NCBI GenBank assembly: GCA_023145515.1
Contig: JAGLDP010000004.1
Coordinates: 1-38,290 of the forward strand
Source of the DNA: Bacteroidales bacterium
GTDB taxonomy: Bacteria; Bacteroidota; Bacteroidia; Bacteroidales; UBA12481
Direction: 5' to 3'
DNA: 38,290 nt
Part shown: in pieces, positions 14,748 to 35,987 of the stretch
How the letters are laid out: every line of letters begins with the position of its first letter
Position numbering within the stretch: the stretch's first letter is position 1
Notes under the pieces: model-generated
Told to the model about the DNA's origin: nothing
The model's input: only the letters and a program-made list of their open reading frames with translations
Databases searched by the model: none
Position numbers and translations under genes: made by a program

Positions 14748-15143
14748 ATGATTTATGGAGTAGGAACTGATATTATTGAGGTTGATCGGGTTCGTAAGTT
14801 TATTTCGAAGGGTGATGCTTTTAAGCATAGGGTGTGGACGCCTGCAGAGATTGAATATTGTGATTCGCATCGTGATTCAGCACCATTTTATGCAGCAAGG
14901 TTTTCAGCTAAAGAAGCGTTTGTAAAAGCCATGGGTACAGGCTTTATCAAAGGAATCGGATTTAGCCAGATCGAAGTGTATCATGATGAACTCAATAAGC
15001 CCCTGATCAGGCTAAGCGGTAAAGCAAAAGAATTTGCTGAATCCCGGGGCATTACCCACATTCACTTATCTATTTCTCACGTAAAGGATTGGGCAAACGC
15101 AGTGGCTATACTGGAAACCGAAGACCCAAGACCGAAGACCTAA
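14748..15143 (+). CDS. acpS: Holo-[acyl-carrier-protein] synthase
   Basis: A 131-residue AcpS-type phosphopantetheinyl transferase, which attaches the 4'-phosphopantetheine arm of CoA to carrier proteins. The start at 14748 gives the family N-terminus MIYGVGTDIIEVDRV. The metal-binding FSAKEAFVKAMGTG and the LSISHVKDWANAVAI block are intact. The last residues (EDPRPKT) are coded by the heptamer array that begins at 15121, and the TAA stop lies in that array. It follows nrdJ closely and converges on a cluster containing a carrier protein (16470-16718), a plausible substrate. Confidence 0.94.
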   Translation: MIYGVGTDIIEVDRVRKFISKGDAFKHRVWTPAEIEYCDSHRDSAPFYAARFSAKEAFVKAMGTGFIKGIGFSQIEVYHDELNKPLIRLSGKAKEFAESRGITHIHLSISHVKDWANAVAILETEDPRPKT

Positions 15144-15204
15144 GACCGAAATCAGACTTAAGTCTTAAGACTGAAGAAACAAGTCAAGAAACAAGAAACT
15201 GTCT
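15121..15204 (+). repeat. Heptamer array and flanking repeat (AAGACCN family), copy 1
   Basis: Four AAGACCN units are followed by a longer sequence that keeps the same 7-base phase (ACTTAAG, TCTTAAG, ACTGAAG, AAACAAG and so on). The whole block matches 26106-26190 in inverted orientation over about 82 bases, with about eight substitutions and one gap by eye. It overlaps the 3' end of acpS and fills the gap to the convergent synthase gene. Confidence 0.88.
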
Positions 15205-20907: not shown

Positions 20908-20970
20908 AGTCAATAGTCAATAGTTTTTCGTCGTTTGTCATTCGTCATTCGTCTTTCGGAAGAGCTCAGA
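20908..20970. repeat. Heptamer array (AGTCAAT, CGTCATT, CGTCTTT units)
   Basis: Nine consecutive 7-base units after the tdh stop: AGTCAAT twice, AGTTTTT, CGTCGTT, TGTCATT, CGTCATT, CGTCTTT, CGGAAGA, GCTCAGA. The last four closely match 23515-23542. A short second run (TTAGGTA, TTGGGTA, TTAGGTG) lies at 21005-21025. The rest of this 153-base gap shows nothing else. Confidence 0.85.
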
Positions 20971-23481: not shown

Positions 23482-23500
23482 GATTCACTTGGTTTAATTT

Positions 23501-23542
23501 CGTCTTTCGTCTTTCGTCATTCGTCATTCGGAAGAGCTCAGT
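23501..23542. repeat. Heptamer array (CGTCTTT, CGTCATT units)
   Basis: Six units: CGTCTTT twice, CGTCATT twice, CGGAAGA, GCTCAGT. It shares the CGTC-type units and the CGGAAGA-GCTCAG end with the array at 20908-20970, in the same orientation. The two arrays bracket propeller copies 1 and 2. Confidence 0.87.
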
Positions 23543-24915: not shown

Positions 24916-26028
24916 ATGTCAAATAAAACTCCTGCAACTCGCCTCCTCTCTCTCGATGCCCTTCGTGGCTTCGATATGTTCTGGATTATTGGTGGCGGTG
25001 CCTTTTTTACGGCTCTGATTGATGCTACCGGATGGGGATGGCTGGAGGGAGTGTCGAAACAATTACATCATGTAAAATGGGATGGCTTCAGAGCCTGGGA
25101 TTTGATCTTCCCTCTGTTCATGTTTATTGCGGGTGTTGCTATTCCTTATGCCATTTTAAGTAAGCTCAAAAAGGGACAATCAAAATCGAGCCTGGTTATG
25201 AAGATTATTAAGCGGGGTGTGATTCTGGTTTTTCTGGGCTTCGTCTATAATGGAATATTCAAATTGCAGTTTGGTGATCCTGGTTTTCGCTTTGCGAGTG
25301 TATTAGGACAAATAGGACTGGCATATCTTATTGCAGGATTGATAGTTATCTATACCCGAAATTTCAAATTCAGATTGATGTGGTTGGCCGGAATGTTGTT
25401 GGGAATTGCTATTCTCCAGTTGTTTATTCCGGTTCCTGGGTTCGGGGCCGGCGTTCTTACTCCTGAAGGAAGTATTAATAGTTATATTGATCAGATGCTT
25501 TTACCCGGAAGGTTACACGGAAAAGTTTTTGATCCTGAAGGCCTGTTGTGCATTGTTTCTGCTGCCGGGATCACCCTGATGGGGGTGCTGGCGGGTGAAA
25601 TTCTGAGAAATAAATCCTGGGGAGAGTATAAAAAGGTGCTCTACCTTGCTATTGCAGGTGTGACAGGTATTGTACTGGCATTAATTCTACAACCTTTTTA
25701 TCCTGTGATTAAAGCTGCCTGGACCACCACCTTTAATCTATTGGCAGGTGGAATCAGCTTTCTGCTACTTGCACTGTTTTACTTGGTAATCGATATTTGG
25801 AAAATTCAAAAATGGGCTTTCTTCTTCCGGGTAATCGGACTCAATTCCATTACCATTTATCTGGGAATGCGGATAATCGATTTTTATCATACTTCTCAAT
25901 TCTTTCTGGGAGGGATATCAGAAATCTCAGGCGACTATGGAAGAGTAATCTACTTGGGTGGCGTTATTTTGGCAGAGTGGCTTTTCTTGTACTTTTTGTA
26001 TAAGAAGAAGATCTTTTTACGGGTTTAA
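24916..26028 (+). CDS. Polytopic acyltransferase-like membrane protein (DUF5009/HGSNAT-like)
   Basis: A 370-residue integral membrane protein with about ten hydrophobic segments. The N-terminus RLLSLDALRGFDMFWIIGGGAFF and the following KWDGFRAWDLIFPLFMFIAGVAIPYA are the hallmarks of the DUF5009 family, related to heparan-alpha-glucosaminide N-acetyltransferase, which moves acetyl groups across a membrane to glucosamine. The exact acceptor in bacteria is unknown; acetylation or transport linked to glycan use is an inference supported only by the GH92 gene a few kilobases away. The stop codon TAA overlaps the first unit of the heptamer array at 26027. Confidence 0.83.
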   Translation: MSNKTPATRLLSLDALRGFDMFWIIGGGAFFTALIDATGWGWLEGVSKQLHHVKWDGFRAWDLIFPLFMFIAGVAIPYAILSKLKKGQSKSSLVMKIIKRGVILVFLGFVYNGIFKLQFGDPGFRFASVLGQIGLAYLIAGLIVIYTRNFKFRLMWLAGMLLGIAILQLFIPVPGFGAGVLTPEGSINSYIDQMLLPGRLHGKVFDPEGLLCIVSAAGITLMGVLAGEILRNKSWGEYKKVLYLAIAGVTGIVLALILQPFYPVIKAAWTTTFNLLAGGISFLLLALFYLVIDIWKIQKWAFFFRVIGLNSITIYLGMRIIDFYHTSQFFLGGISEISGDYGRVIYLGGVILAEWLFLYFLYKKKIFLRV

Positions 26029-26089
26029 GACCTAAGACCTAAGACCCAAGACCTAAATTAGACCAAAGAATAAAGACTAAAGAACGAAG
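26027..26089 (+). repeat. Heptamer array (AAGACCN family), left inverted end
   Basis: Nine units in phase: AAGACCT, AAGACCT, AAGACCC, AAGACCT, AAATTAG, ACCAAAG, AATAAAG, ACTAAAG, AACGAAG. Unit for unit it matches the reverse complement of the array at 26611-26680 with about ten differences over 63 bases. It begins on the stop codon of the upstream membrane protein gene. Confidence 0.88.
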
Positions 26090-26105
26090 TTAATACAGAA
26101 TAAAT

Positions 26106-26190
26106 GACACTGTCTTATTTCTTGACTTGTCTCTTCAGTCTTAAGACTTAAGTCTAGTTTGGTCTTAGGTCTTAGGTCTTTGGTCTTAAG
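26106..26190 (-). repeat. Heptamer array and flanking repeat, copy 2
   Basis: Reverse complement of this block matches 15121-15204 at nearly nine of ten positions, including the non-tandem part ACTTAAG-TCTTAAG-ACTGAAG. The array overlaps the 3' end of the four-helix-bundle gene, which reads its last residues (LRPKT) and TAA stop from it. Confidence 0.88.
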
Positions 26191-26543
26191 TTTTGGCTCT
26201 TAAGTTTTAAGTCAGCTTTTTTCGCGATTGTACTAAATATTCGTTTTAGTTCGATTATTTCACATTCAATTTTTTCTGTTTCAATCTTTCCTGTTTTTAT
26301 TTTTGACAAATATTTAATCCAATATTCTGTTTCCTTCAATTCTTTTTGAGCGATCTTTATTTTATTTAAGAAATCACGGTAGGAACTAGATGCTTGTGAC
26401 TCAGAATAGTTTGCACCAACGGAGGTCGAAGATTTTATTATCTGCTTAATAACTGGCTCAATAAATTGATCATTCATGAGCGGTTTAAGGGATTCAAAAA
26501 TCCTAACCGCGAATTCGACCAATCTGTTTTGTAAATCATTCAT
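26172..26543 (-). CDS. Four-helix-bundle protein (23S rRNA intervening-sequence/S23 family)
   Basis: A 123-residue, all-helical protein. Signatures of the family are RIFESLKPL, the central IIKSSTSVGANYSESQASSSYRDFLNKIKIAQKELKETEYWIKYL, and a Lys/Glu-rich last helix. Homologues occur in intervening sequences of 23S rRNA and, more often, as free-standing genes; they are structurally related to the Avd accessory protein of diversity-generating retroelements. Biochemical function is not established, although nucleic-acid binding is suspected. The last residues (NLRPKT) come from a heptamer array. The gene lies between inverted arrays, so it may be part of a mobile or repeat-associated unit. Confidence 0.85.
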   Translation of the reverse strand: MNDLQNRLVEFAVRIFESLKPLMNDQFIEPVIKQIIKSSTSVGANYSESQASSSYRDFLNKIKIAQKELKETEYWIKYLSKIKTGKIETEKIECEIIELKRIFSTIAKKADLKLKSQNLRPKT

Positions 26544-26610
26544 ATTGCATAGAGTTTATTAGTATAGATGAATAAAGTCGAGTGAAATGGAAAATAATCG
26601 TGATCTTTTT

Positions 26611-26680
26611 CAGTCTTAAGTCTTAAGTCTTTCGTCTTCGGTCAAATTTTGGTCTTGGGTCTTCGGTCTTAGGTCTTAAA
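26611..26680 (-). repeat. Heptamer array upstream of gltX, right inverted end
   Basis: Ten 7-base units. Its reverse complement reads AAGACCT, AAGACCG, AAGACCC, AAGACCA, AAATTTG, ACCGAAG, ACGAAAG, ACTTAAG, ACTTAAG, and so on. The first eight units equal the array inside gltX (27065-27120) except for one base. It also pairs with 26027-26089 and runs into the gltX promoter. Confidence 0.92.
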
Positions 26681-26692
26681 AGAGTATTTTTG
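26662..26692 (+). promoter_or_regulatory. Candidate gltX promoter, -33 box within a heptamer array
   Basis: TTCG at 26662-26665 and TATTTTTG at 26685-26692 are 19 bases apart, fitting TTTG/TAnnTTTG with one mismatch in the -33 box. The -33 box is part of the repeat array. Transcription would start near 26698, about 12 bases before the ATG. Confidence 0.55.
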
Positions 26693-26709: not shown

Positions 26710-28299
26710 ATGTCCACAAGAGTCCGTTTCGCCCCATCACCCACAGGCCCCCTCCACATGGGTGGTGTTAGAACAGCTTTGTTTAATTACCTCTTTGCTA
26801 AGAAGCATGGTGGTACGATGATCCTCCGGATTGAGGATACTGATCAGAATAGGTATGTTGCTGGTGCTGAGGAGTATATCATGGAGTCTTTGGCCTGGAG
26901 TGGGATAAAGATTGATGAGGGTGTTAAAGAAGGTGGTGAGTATGGTCCTTATCGACAGTCTGAGCGGAAGGAAATTTATAAGGAATATGCTGATCGTTTG
27001 ATTGAGAATGGGTGGGCTTATTATGCTTTTGATACTGCGGAGGAACTGAATGCTTGGAGAGAAAAAGACCTAAGACCGAAGACCGAAGACCAAAATTTGA
27101 CCGAAGACGAAAGACTTAAGACCTGGAAGTTTTCTTACGATACAGGCACTAGAAAATATTTGAAAAACTCATTGAGCATGCCGGCCAAGGAAGTGGAGCA
27201 GTTAATGGATGAGGGGGTGCCTTATGTTGTTCGGTTTATGTTTCCTTTGGATGAGGAGATTGTGATGCAGGATCTTATTCGTGGTGAGGTTCGGGTGAAT
27301 ACTGCTGCGCTTGATGATAAGGTGCTGTTTAAGTCTGATGGCATGCCTACTTATCATTTGGCCAATGTGGTTGATGATCATTTGATGAAGATTTCGCACG
27401 TGATTCGTGGTGAGGAATGGTTGCCTTCTATGCCGCTGCATGTGATGCTTTATAAGGCTTTTGGATGGACAGATACTCAGCCTGAGTTTGCGCATTTGCC
27501 CTTGATAATGAAGCCTGTAGGTAAAGGTAAATTGAGTAAACGAGATGGAGATAAATTGGGATTTCCGGTATTTCCGATCAATTGGAAGAATCAGGAAACC
27601 GGCGATGAAGCTTCCGGATATCGTGAAGCAGGGTATTTGCCTGAGGCTTTTGTTAATATGCTGGCTCTTTTGGGATGGAATCCGGGAACTGAGCAAGAAA
27701 TATTCTCAATGAAACAATTGATCAAAGCTTTCAGCCTTGAGAGAGTTGGAAAGTCTGGTAGTCGCTTTGATCCGGAGAAATCAAAGAGCCTGAATCATGC
27801 TTATATTCAGAAGTTGGGTGATGCAGTATTGGGGTGGTTGTTAGTGTCTCAGGGATTCGGGGACTCGAGGATACAGGGATTTGGGGACTCGGGACTTGAG
27901 AGTCAAAGTAAAATGAAACAAGTTGTTGGTTTGGTTAAGGAGCGGATGAATTTTCTAACTGATTTTTGGGATCAGTCTTATTTCTTTTTTGAGGCGCCTA
28001 CTGTATATGATGCTAAGATGGTGAAGAAGGCTTGGAAAGAGGCGACGGGGGAGAGGATGGGGAAGATTATTGAGATTATTCGGGAAGTTGAAGGCTCAGG
28101 GCTCAAGGCTCAGGATTATGAAGATGGTATTAAGGCTTGGATTACTGAGGAGGATATTGGGATGGGCTTGGTTATGAATCCTTTGCGTTTGTCTTTGGTT
28201 GGGGCTCCTAAGGGACCTGGCGTTTTTGATATTATGGAGGTTTTGGGGAAAGAGGAAGTGATCAACAGAATTCAGAAGGCAATTACTATCTTAGGATAA
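26710..28299 (+). CDS. gltX: Glutamyl-tRNA synthetase with repeat-derived insertions
   Basis: A 529-residue class I aminoacyl-tRNA synthetase that charges tRNA-Glu. The HIGH-type motif is PSPTGPLHMGG near the N-terminus and the KMSKS-type motif is GKLSKRDGDK. Sequence follows the Bacteroidota GltX pattern throughout (RIEDTDQNRYVAGAEEYI, HVIRGEEWLPSMPLHV, GYREAGYLPEAFVNMLALLGWNPG). It differs in an insertion after ELNAWREK of about 20 residues (DLRPKTEDQNLTEDERLK) coded by a heptamer array, a second repeat-derived stretch (QGFGDSRIQGFGDSGLES), and a third short one (GSGLKAQ). All keep the frame. The protein is about 20 residues longer than relatives I recall. GH92 follows after 12 bases. Confidence 0.95.
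   Translation: MSTRVRFAPSPTGPLHMGGVRTALFNYLFAKKHGGTMILRIEDTDQNRYVAGAEEYIMESLAWSGIKIDEGVKEGGEYGPYRQSERKEIYKEYADRLIENGWAYYAFDTAEELNAWREKDLRPKTEDQNLTEDERLKTWKFSYDTGTRKYLKNSLSMPAKEVEQLMDEGVPYVVRFMFPLDEEIVMQDLIRGEVRVNTAALDDKVLFKSDGMPTYHLANVVDDHLMKISHVIRGEEWLPSMPLHVMLYKAFGWTDTQPEFAHLPLIMKPVGKGKLSKRDGDKLGFPVFPINWKNQETGDEASGYREAGYLPEAFVNMLALLGWNPGTEQEIFSMKQLIKAFSLERVGKSGSRFDPEKSKSLNHAYIQKLGDAVLGWLLVSQGFGDSRIQGFGDSGLESQSKMKQVVGLVKERMNFLTDFWDQSYFFFEAPTVYDAKMVKKAWKEATGERMGKIIEIIREVEGSGLKAQDYEDGIKAWITEEDIGMGLVMNPLRLSLVGAPKGPGVFDIMEVLGKEEVINRIQKAITILG
27065..27120 (+). repeat. Heptamer array inside gltX
   Basis: Eight units: AAGACCT, AAGACCG, AAGACCG, AAGACCA, AAATTTG, ACCGAAG, ACGAAAG, ACTTAAG. It is identical to the reverse complement of 26625-26680 apart from one base. 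It codes the DLRPKTEDQNLTEDERLK insertion and has no stop in the gltX frame. Confidence 0.93.
27851..27899 (+). repeat. Second heptamer array inside gltX (GGGGACTC type)
   Basis: Seven units in phase (AGGGATT, CGGGGAC, TCGAGGA, TACAGGG, ATTTGGG, GACTCGG, GACTTGA). It codes QGFGDSRIQGFGDSGLE, where the seven-residue period GFGDSRI/GFGDSGL is visible in the protein. Confidence 0.78.
28091..28114 (+). repeat. Third short array inside gltX (AAGGCTC type)
   Basis: AAGGCTC, AGGGCTC, AAGGCTC and a partial unit, coding EGSGLKAQ. The same unit forms the arrays at 31976-32003 and 35948-35975. Confidence 0.7.
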
Positions 28300-31977: not shown

Positions 31978-32003
31978 GGCTCAAGGCTCAAGGCTCAGGG
32001 CAG
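31976..32003. repeat. Heptamer array between convergent genes (AAGGCTC type)
   Basis: AGGGCTC, AAGGCTC, AAGGCTC, AGGGCAG. The array forms the whole 17-base gap between two convergent genes. The TAG of the peptidase gene overlaps its first bases, and the TGA of the DUF4252 gene (31995-31997 on the minus strand) is read from inside it. Confidence 0.8.
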
Positions 32004-32790: not shown

Positions 32791-33204
32791 TTATTGGTCA
32801 TCGTTCGGGATTTCTAGTTTGATATTGTTTAAAGGGGTGAAGCTTTTGTTTAGGGATTGTGAGTAGTGTGATAGGATTTTGATGGTGTGCTCGAAGGCTA
32901 ATTCGATCTGGTCTTCTGTGAATTTTGGTGAAGAATCGAAAATTTTATCCTTACTAAGCCAAATAGACAAACCAAGAGCAACAACCAAAACAGCAGCAGC
33001 AATCACTCTAGTCAAAAAAGCTCTGAGCTCTGAGTTCTGAGTTCTGAAAACTGAAAACTTTTGACTTGTATTTCCGAGAGACGAATGACGAAAGACGTCT
33101 TTCTTAGACCTCTGCTTCTGGAAGTTGAGATAAGCCCTCTCTGATATCCTCTTCTCCCCCTCAACCCAATCCCAATATTCCTTATTTATTTCGTCCTTAT
33201 TCAT
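32791..33204 (-). CDS. Single-TM protein paired with the ECF sigma factor (anti-sigma candidate)
   Basis: A 137-residue protein with a short N-terminal cytoplasmic part (INKEYWDWVEGEKRISERAYLNF), one membrane segment (FLTRVIAAAVLVVALGLSIWL) and a short periplasmic tail. Its ATG overlaps the sigma gene by eight bases, so translation is coupled. Topology and context make it the likely anti-sigma factor or sensor, though no recognised anti-sigma domain is evident. About 25 residues just before the membrane segment (KKDVFRHSSLGNTSQKFSVF...SEL) are coded by a heptamer array, so the cytoplasmic linker is repeat-derived. Confidence 0.72.
   Translation of the reverse strand: MNKDEINKEYWDWVEGEKRISERAYLNFQKQRSKKDVFRHSSLGNTSQKFSVFRTQNSELRAFLTRVIAAAVLVVALGLSIWLSKDKIFDSSPKFTEDQIELAFEHTIKILSHYSQSLNKSFTPLNNIKLEIPNDDQ
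33021..33097. repeat. Heptamer array inside the sigma-partner gene
   Basis: Eleven units: CTCTGAG twice, TTCTGAG, TTCTGAA, AACTGAA, AACTTTT, GACTTGT, ATTTCCG, AGAGACG, AATGACG, AAAGACG. The ends match the reverse complement of the arrays at 20908-20970 and 23501-23542. It lies wholly within a coding frame without stops. Confidence 0.85.
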
Positions 33205-33723: not shown

Positions 33724-33740
33724 GGGGGAAAACATTACAT

Positions 33741-33824
33741 GGCACAAGGCACAAGGCACAAGGCACAAGGCTTTTTACCGTCTGTCACTTGAGCCCTGAG
33801 CCCTGAGCTTTGAAACCTGAGCCT
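33741..33824. repeat. Two heptamer arrays (GGCACAA and TGAGCCC types)
   Basis: GGCACAA is repeated four times without change at 33741-33768. Then TGAGCCC, TGAGCCC, TGAGCTT, TGAAACC, TGAGCCT occupy 33790-33824. Together they fill most of the gap between the sigma gene and the glnS stop codon. Confidence 0.9.
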
Positions 33825-35603: not shown

Positions 35604-35987
35604 ATGGGTGTTATTCGTATTGAGCAGATGGAATTTTACTCTTATCATGGGCATTATGAGGAGGAGCGGATTGTCGGGAATCGTTTTTTGGTTGATTTGA
35701 TGATGGAGACAGATTGTTCGGCACCTGCTGAATCGGATAAGCTGCAAGATGCTCTTGATTACCAGCGTGCTTATGAGTTGGTTCGTGATGAGATGAAAGA
35801 TAAATCCTTTTTGCTTGAGCATATTGCCAAGAGGATTTTGGATACTTTGTTTACGAATTTTGATAGTTTAGAGAAGGCTGAGGTAAAGGTTGCAAAGCTG
35901 AATCCACCGATGGGCGGGAAGATACGCGCAGTGTCTGTTACGCTGTTAAGGCATAAGGCTCAAGGCTCAAGGCTCAAGAAGAACTAA
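35604..35987 (+). CDS. folB: Dihydroneopterin aldolase
   Basis: A 127-residue FolB, which converts 7,8-dihydroneopterin to 6-hydroxymethyl-dihydropterin in folate synthesis. Motifs are MEFYSYHGHYEEERIVGNRFLVDL, the DALDYQRAYELVRDEM block, FLLEHIAKRILDTL and VKVAKLNPPMGGKIRAVSVTL. The expected end is just after VSVTLLR. The extra tail HKAQGSRLKKN is coded by a heptamer array, so the C-terminus has been extended by the repeat. Divergent from glnS. Confidence 0.93.
   Translation: MGVIRIEQMEFYSYHGHYEEERIVGNRFLVDLMMETDCSAPAESDKLQDALDYQRAYELVRDEMKDKSFLLEHIAKRILDTLFTNFDSLEKAEVKVAKLNPPMGGKIRAVSVTLLRHKAQGSRLKKN
35948..35975 (+). repeat. Heptamer array in the folB 3' end (AAGGCTC type)
   Basis: AAGGCAT, then AAGGCTC three times, coding the KAQGSRLK tail of FolB. 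Confidence 0.82.

Follow-up and report, generated by a model that had tools for sequence, protein, structure and literature searches.

REP/RAYT systems consist of a gene for a RAYT (Y1 HUH) transposase flanked by inverted repeats, with matching repeats dispersed in the genome, and the STRR sequences of cyanobacteria are short tandemly repeated repetitive heptamers. Heptamer arrays have been described with the units GGGAATC in Xanthomonas (PMC4692102, where heptamers in Nostoc and Calothrix are also mentioned) and TAACTGA (PMC4679880), their origin being given in neither paper, and S1, Csp or CsrA have been suggested as heptamer binders (PMC4679880). S23 proteins (S23p) have been described in the intervening sequences (IVSs) of rRNA (PMC4990558, PMC11270868), the stems of which are cut by RNase III (PMC4990558), and the crystal structure of one of them, XCC0516, is a pentamer (PMC4990558). 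S23p has also been described as Avd-like (PMC10053308) and as a CRISPR-linked domain (PMC10910872). No link between S23/IVP proteins and heptamer arrays was found in the literature consulted, mainly open-access papers on the protein family. Two old puzzles meet in the locus described here: heptamer repeats, recorded for decades from cyanobacteria and elsewhere among bacteria but with no known origin or partner, and a protein family, S23/IVP, with a solved structure and no function.

The S23 locus between NagX and gltX

The window, i.e. the whole stretch of 38,290 nucleotides that was analysed, is a contig of a Bacteroidales genome (G000; 2.58 Mb, 63% complete). The features of the locus, and two related copies elsewhere in the window, are as follows:

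24916..26028, + strand: NagX-like membrane acetyltransferase, flanking gene (NF046061, 311.7 bits, under its 480-bit cut-off)
26027..26680, − strand: whole element, filling the NagX-gltX gap of 682 bp (comparison with the sister species G001)
26027..26089, + strand: L arm, the inverted counterpart of R; in the reading direction of the gene, the pyrimidine-rich 3' arm; starts at the NagX stop codon
26132..26213, − strand: M, a third AAGACCN array, oriented like R, covering the 3' end and stop codon of the S23 gene (49/59 identical to inverted L)
26172..26543, − strand: gene for an S23/23S-rRNA-IVP four-helix-bundle protein of 123 aa (PF05635, TIGR02436, AlphaFold2, Foldseek)
26612..26680, − strand: R arm, an AAGACCN heptamer array; purine-rich 5' arm when read with the gene (aligned to inverted L, see below)
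26710..28299, + strand: gltX, glutamate-tRNA ligase, flanking gene (TIGR00464, 457.4 bits)
27065..27122, + strand: gene-less AAGACCN copy, in frame inside gltX (57/58 identical to the reverse complement of R)
15117..15190, + strand: further gene-less copy of the AAGACCN family (62/70 identical to the reverse complement of M)

The original prediction, of outer arrays that form imperfect inverted repeats around a gene of the S23/IVS family and of a third array overlapping the gene end, was borne out: L and the reverse complement of R are identical in 53 of 60 aligned columns, the protein scored over the cut-off in profile searches with PF05635 (54.2 bits, cut-off 33.8) and TIGR02436 (69.6 bits), and M covers the stop codon. 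The AlphaFold2 model of the protein had a mean pLDDT of 94, and its nearest folds according to Foldseek were 2RLD (BT_0352, of the S23 family, TM 0.77), 2GSC (XCC0516) and, more distantly, Avd (4DWL, TM 0.66); as modelled, the window protein shares the Avd fold. The predicted pI of S23 family cores has a median of about 6.9, which speaks against a uniformly basic family. No nuclease and no reverse transcriptase could be recognised in the window element.

Lying between NagX and gltX, the element is outside any rRNA gene, and scanning with Rfam revealed no rRNA either there or at 38 related loci. Neither the window locus nor any of 18 array-bearing loci matched an Rfam family at its gathering score; a match to MIR9563 was sub-threshold (31.6 vs. 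90 bits), merely reflects the hairpin and was rejected. The comparison with sister strains that had been proposed was made with the sister species G001, in which the two flanking genes are separated by 199 bp containing neither an S23 gene nor AAGACCN arrays.

The AAGACCN arrays are a dispersed family in the window genome. A three-unit AAGACCN pattern had 22 exact matches in G000, compared to none for the reversed control, and 11 in total among 60 relatives (six in G001, three in G049 and two in G057). The copy inside gltX is missing from the G001 gene, as revealed by alignment of gltX, and adds the residues ...KDLRPKTEDQNLTEDERLKTW... to the protein; a gene-less array copy is here tolerated in an essential enzyme. 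Seven other arrays of the window (20930-20958, 23498-23530, 31978-32001, 33019-33059, 33737-33771, 33790-33808 and 35947-35978) carry other heptamers (TTCGTCN, GGCTCAA, AGCTCTG, ACAAGGC, GAGCCCT and AAGGCTC), and no S23 partners of these arrays were found in G000, which is 63% complete. Outside the window, G000 contains 20 arrays per Mb.

As AAGACCN copies are dispersed, the window locus on its own could be a coincidence. Comparative data exclude chance, a chance meeting of dispersed AAGACCN repeats with an S23 gene being ruled out by the period-7 test around other S23 genes.

Heptamer arrays and inverted arms at other S23 loci

In this test, any tandem array was searched around 111 other S23 loci of relatives, with the window left out. 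Period-7 arrays covered 8.9% and 9.1% of the 200 bp on each side of the gene, compared to 0.2-0.3% past 500 bp. Period 8 was weaker (about 3.5% near and 0.3% far), periods 6, 9 and 12 reached at most about 1% and period 5 was zero; across sets, periods 5, 6 and 10-13 were near zero. Inverted arms, defined as a 5' flank that aligns to the reverse complement of the 3' flank with a score of at least 20, were present at 45 of 95 loci, and direct alignments at the same score at 10 of 95. The flanks of different loci paired in only 0.5% of cases, and no inverted arms were detected at control loci of the same genomes, either of ParE toxin genes (0/19) or of gltX (0/21). The AAGACCN word itself was found near none of 31 other S23 loci of relatives, because the unit differs from locus to locus: every S23 locus carries its own heptamer unit and AAGACCN is not general.

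The cross-phylum set comprised 79 named loci of one S23 subfamily, mostly from MAGs, labelled as Bacteroidota, Ignavibacteria, Chlorobiota, Clostridia, candidate phyla, Acidobacteria and Gammaproteobacteria; the scan pattern was taken from a closer subfamily alignment, a deep S23 alignment having yielded none. Array coverage was 7.6% near the gene vs. 0.5% far from it, for period 7 only, and inverted arms were detected at 40 of 70 loci and in none of 60 far-flank pairs. Pairing between different loci reaches 9% in this set because the subfamily shares units such as AATTACG. Similar results were obtained with a class-wide sample of Gammaproteobacteria (coverage 11.9% near vs. 0.34% far; inverted arms 12/29). 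When the Bacteroidota relatives, the cross-phylum set and the Gammaproteobacteria were pooled, inverted arms were present at 97 of 194 loci and at none of 167 far-flank controls, and 131 of the 194 had inverted arms or a nearby array. About a third had neither at the thresholds used; therefore, either an element can do without arms or the arms decay. Phage records gave no match. Thus, of the earlier proposal that AAGACCN arrays accompany other four-helix-bundle genes, the arrays stood, as period-7 enrichment and inverted arms, and the AAGACCN word did not.

To what extent the unit follows the protein was assayed by comparing protein similarity with arm 4-mer similarity between different genomes, which gave a Mantel r of 0.66 (permutation maximum 0.16) for 117 loci whose rows are phylogenetically non-independent; inside the two sets separately, the correlation was 0.44 and 0.63. 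The arms of different S23 genes in one genome were no more alike than those between genomes (0.125 vs. 0.168). It follows from this co-variation, and from the lack of a same-genome effect, that the arms descend together with the protein or are matched to it. The arm sequences of each S23 gene also recur scattered in their own genome, and rarely in three others, as determined with 14-mers and blastn; matching with 11-mers was too noisy, and a GGTTGATx3 pattern run across 60 genomes was too strict to inform. At two loci of genome G034 (L368 and L370), decamer-like arrays (GGAATGAGTC) adjoin GGAAGTT heptamers that match an S23 arm, and this genome holds 40 period-10 arrays per Mb.

The proposed tie between gene and repeats was likewise seen between genomes, arrays being scarce where the gene is absent. 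In partial samples of 14 genomes, the 10 relatives that lack an S23 gene yielded none of these arrays (327 kb sampled), whereas the four carriers yielded 72 (993 kb sampled); the difference has p=3e-9 when counted by bases and p=0.001 when counted by genomes (0/10 vs. 4/4).

It could be argued that the S23 gene merely settles in or beside heptamer arrays that already exist and are spread by slippage or by another element, the two sharing intergenic insertion sites. Dispersed arrays do outnumber S23 genes, three carriers having 57-127 arrays of period 7 per Mb (and none of period 5 or 6), and the window holds several arrays away from the gene. Nevertheless, insertion into an array would give direct flanks, whereas inverted ones prevailed over direct ones at the loci of the relatives; within ORF-free DNA of this set, array coverage was 14.8% near the S23 gene vs. 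1.8% farther off; ParE loci have none; empty sites carry no array (see below); and the unit follows the protein across genomes. We consider this explanation very improbable.

A further association was detected with Y1 transposases. Among those of the 60 relatives whose genomes are at least 90% complete, Y1_Tnp was present in 35 of 37 S23 carriers vs. 5 of 14 non-carriers (p=3e-5), so that a Y1 transposase is a candidate helper, and such a helper or a general load of mobile elements could explain part of the spread. This co-occurrence would fit a DNA-level system similar to REP/RAYT, in which the inverted arrays are the ends of a DNA element moved in trans by a host or IS200/IS605-type (Y1) transposase, the hairpin functions as DNA and the S23 protein is an accessory or a passenger; inverted repeats around a gene, with matching dispersed repeats, and the ATG or TTCTA repeated at the junctions described below, also fit it. 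On the other hand, two genomes with an S23 gene, G058 (97% complete) and G012 (99%), have no Y1_Tnp match, G018 and G019 have Y1_Tnp with neither an S23 gene nor arrays in the samples, and the sense bias and arm polarity presented below are unexpected for a purely DNA-level element. We regard this possibility as unlikely.

Empty and filled sites, orientation and predicted hairpin

Fourteen plasmid-borne S23 genes of cyanobacteria (Nostoc, Calothrix, Trichormus, Anabaena, Pseudanabaena and others) were inspected, and most of them lie between inverted heptamer arrays, with arm pairs that include TCAGGAG/CTCCTGA, GGGAACA/TGTTCCC and GGGTGTA/TACACCC. These arms presumably resemble the STRR heptamers of cyanobacteria.

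In plasmids of Nostoc and Picosynechococcus, the element is either inserted or missing precisely at stop/start junctions. In a conjugative operon of Nostoc, the junction between hyp2 and hyp3 reads TAG-GTT-ATG or TAG-ATT-ATG in five plasmids, whereas three others have an insertion of 420 bp (602 bp in one) there, comprising TCAGGAG-type arms and an S23 gene. The next junction (TAATG) is filled in pNsp_c only, by a different element with GGGAAAA arms. Similarly, Picosynechococcus PCC 7003 carries an element between cas10 and cmr3, a site that is empty in PCC 7002. No arrays were found at the empty counterparts of the filled Nostoc and Picosynechococcus sites. Insertion sequences and MITEs are marked by terminal inverted repeats and a target-site duplication; at the Nostoc junctions ATG or TTCTA is repeated, without a fixed length, and inverted arms are present. 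The claim that the protein is spread with the repeats is supported by these empty and filled sites together with the unit-protein co-variation.

At a third Nostoc junction, TCAGGAG-type arms occur without an S23 gene and two plasmids have different loops (L442:363-652 and L446:363-605), as if the loop content within the same arms were exchangeable. S23 elements were also seen within CRISPR operons (cas6-cas4 and cas10-cmr3; L380, L382 and L383), which may explain the CRISPR-linked PF05635 scores in surveys.

Where the S23 gene lies between co-directional neighbours, it is in sense orientation at 138 loci and antisense at 15 (p=4e-26), and at 91 of 114 loci purines predominate in the coding-strand sequence of the 5' arm. 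Sense bias and arm polarity point to transcription. In the predicted RNA fold of the minus strand at 26020-26690, R and L pair end to end around the gene, with z = -6.96 vs. shuffles; the z values of the predicted hairpins were -7.0 and -6.0. Bias, polarity and predicted hairpin lend indirect support to the suggestion, made from the window alone, of a possible RNA-plus-protein system.

The sense orientation within operons, flush with stop and start codons, would also be compatible with an autoregulatory or operon-tuning module, in which the hairpin and the S23 protein control the host operon and selection maintains them, mobility being secondary; intergenic heptamers have indeed been proposed to act in translation (PMC4679880). 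However, the elements occur among host genes that have nothing in common (CRISPR, conjugation, tRNA synthetase) and are absent from the corresponding sites of sister genomes, and the copy in the window runs antisense to both its neighbours, i.e. in the minority orientation of its family. Such a module is improbable as the main explanation.

Proposed element and comparison with known systems

The observed architecture, its generality, the co-variation of unit and protein, the dispersal within the own genome, the lack of arrays in the sampled relatives without the gene, the sense bias and the precise presence or absence of arms plus gene are probably, although by no means certainly, accounted for by a free-standing, mobile IVS-like element, whose S23 protein recognises its own heptamers and whose gene-less remains are the scattered arrays. 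The purine-rich 5' arm and the pyrimidine-rich 3' arm would pair into a long hairpin, as the predicted folds suggest, with the gene in the loop; the element usually lies inside a host operon, in the sense direction. The S23 protein would bind its own heptamer family, and protein and unit may co-vary because of this recognition. By analogy with rRNA IVSs, action may take place at the RNA level, with processing by RNase III. The element moves as a unit between intergenic sites, as the empty and filled sites show, and copies without the gene, or arms alone, could persist as scattered heptamer arrays, including those of the classical cyanobacterial type. A broader version, on which our doubts slightly outweigh our belief, is that S23/IVP proteins plus heptamer arrays form a widespread and hitherto unrecognised class of mobile RNA hairpins with a clade-specific 7-base word, which would be the source of STRR-type repeats and of which rRNA IVSs would be a special case.

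These data suggest that the S23 family is the missing partner of the 7-base repeats scattered in many bacterial genomes. If the S23 protein recognises its own heptamer, both puzzles can be tested directly, with repeats exchanged among purified proteins. The proposed element would further explain the presence of PF05635 near CRISPR and other unrelated genes, through insertion into those operons, and would provide a family of small proteins whose repeat specificities appear to be diverse and readable; it also predicts GGGAATC arms at the XCC0516 locus of Xanthomonas.

Regarding known systems, the diversity-generating retroelements share with the locus the fold of their Avd accessory protein (PDB 4DWL, 8UB7; PMC10053308), but the window S23 gene is flanked by NagX and gltX, with no reverse transcriptase beside it. 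An RVT_1 reverse transcriptase had no Pfam match in G000, which is incomplete, nor in G031 and G047; as the latter two bear arrays, a reverse transcriptase as an obligatory partner is not supported at the sensitivity of this profile. Compared to REP/RAYT, the S23 gene is likewise flanked by inverted repeats, with matching repeats dispersed in the same genome, but it encodes a four-helix bundle instead of a Y1 HUH transposase, and its repeats are tandem heptamers instead of short palindromes; Y1_Tnp had no match in G000 (63% complete). With STRR and other bacterial heptamers the arrays have in common tandem 7-base units that are intergenic, dispersed and many per genome, whereas here they make up S23 element arms and are lacking in the gene-less relatives sampled, and no protein partner is given in the earlier descriptions (PMC4692102, PMC4679880). 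As in the rRNA IVSs, an S23p gene is bordered by complementary, stem-forming sequences, with a sporadic, horizontally acquired distribution (PMC4990558, PMC11270868); in contrast to them, elements of the window type lie between protein genes and not in rRNA, and each arm is a tandem array of heptamers, the unit being specific to the locus and also dispersed through the genome. Thus, the S23-heptamer element is IVS-like, and the pairing of S23 protein with heptamers appears to be new.
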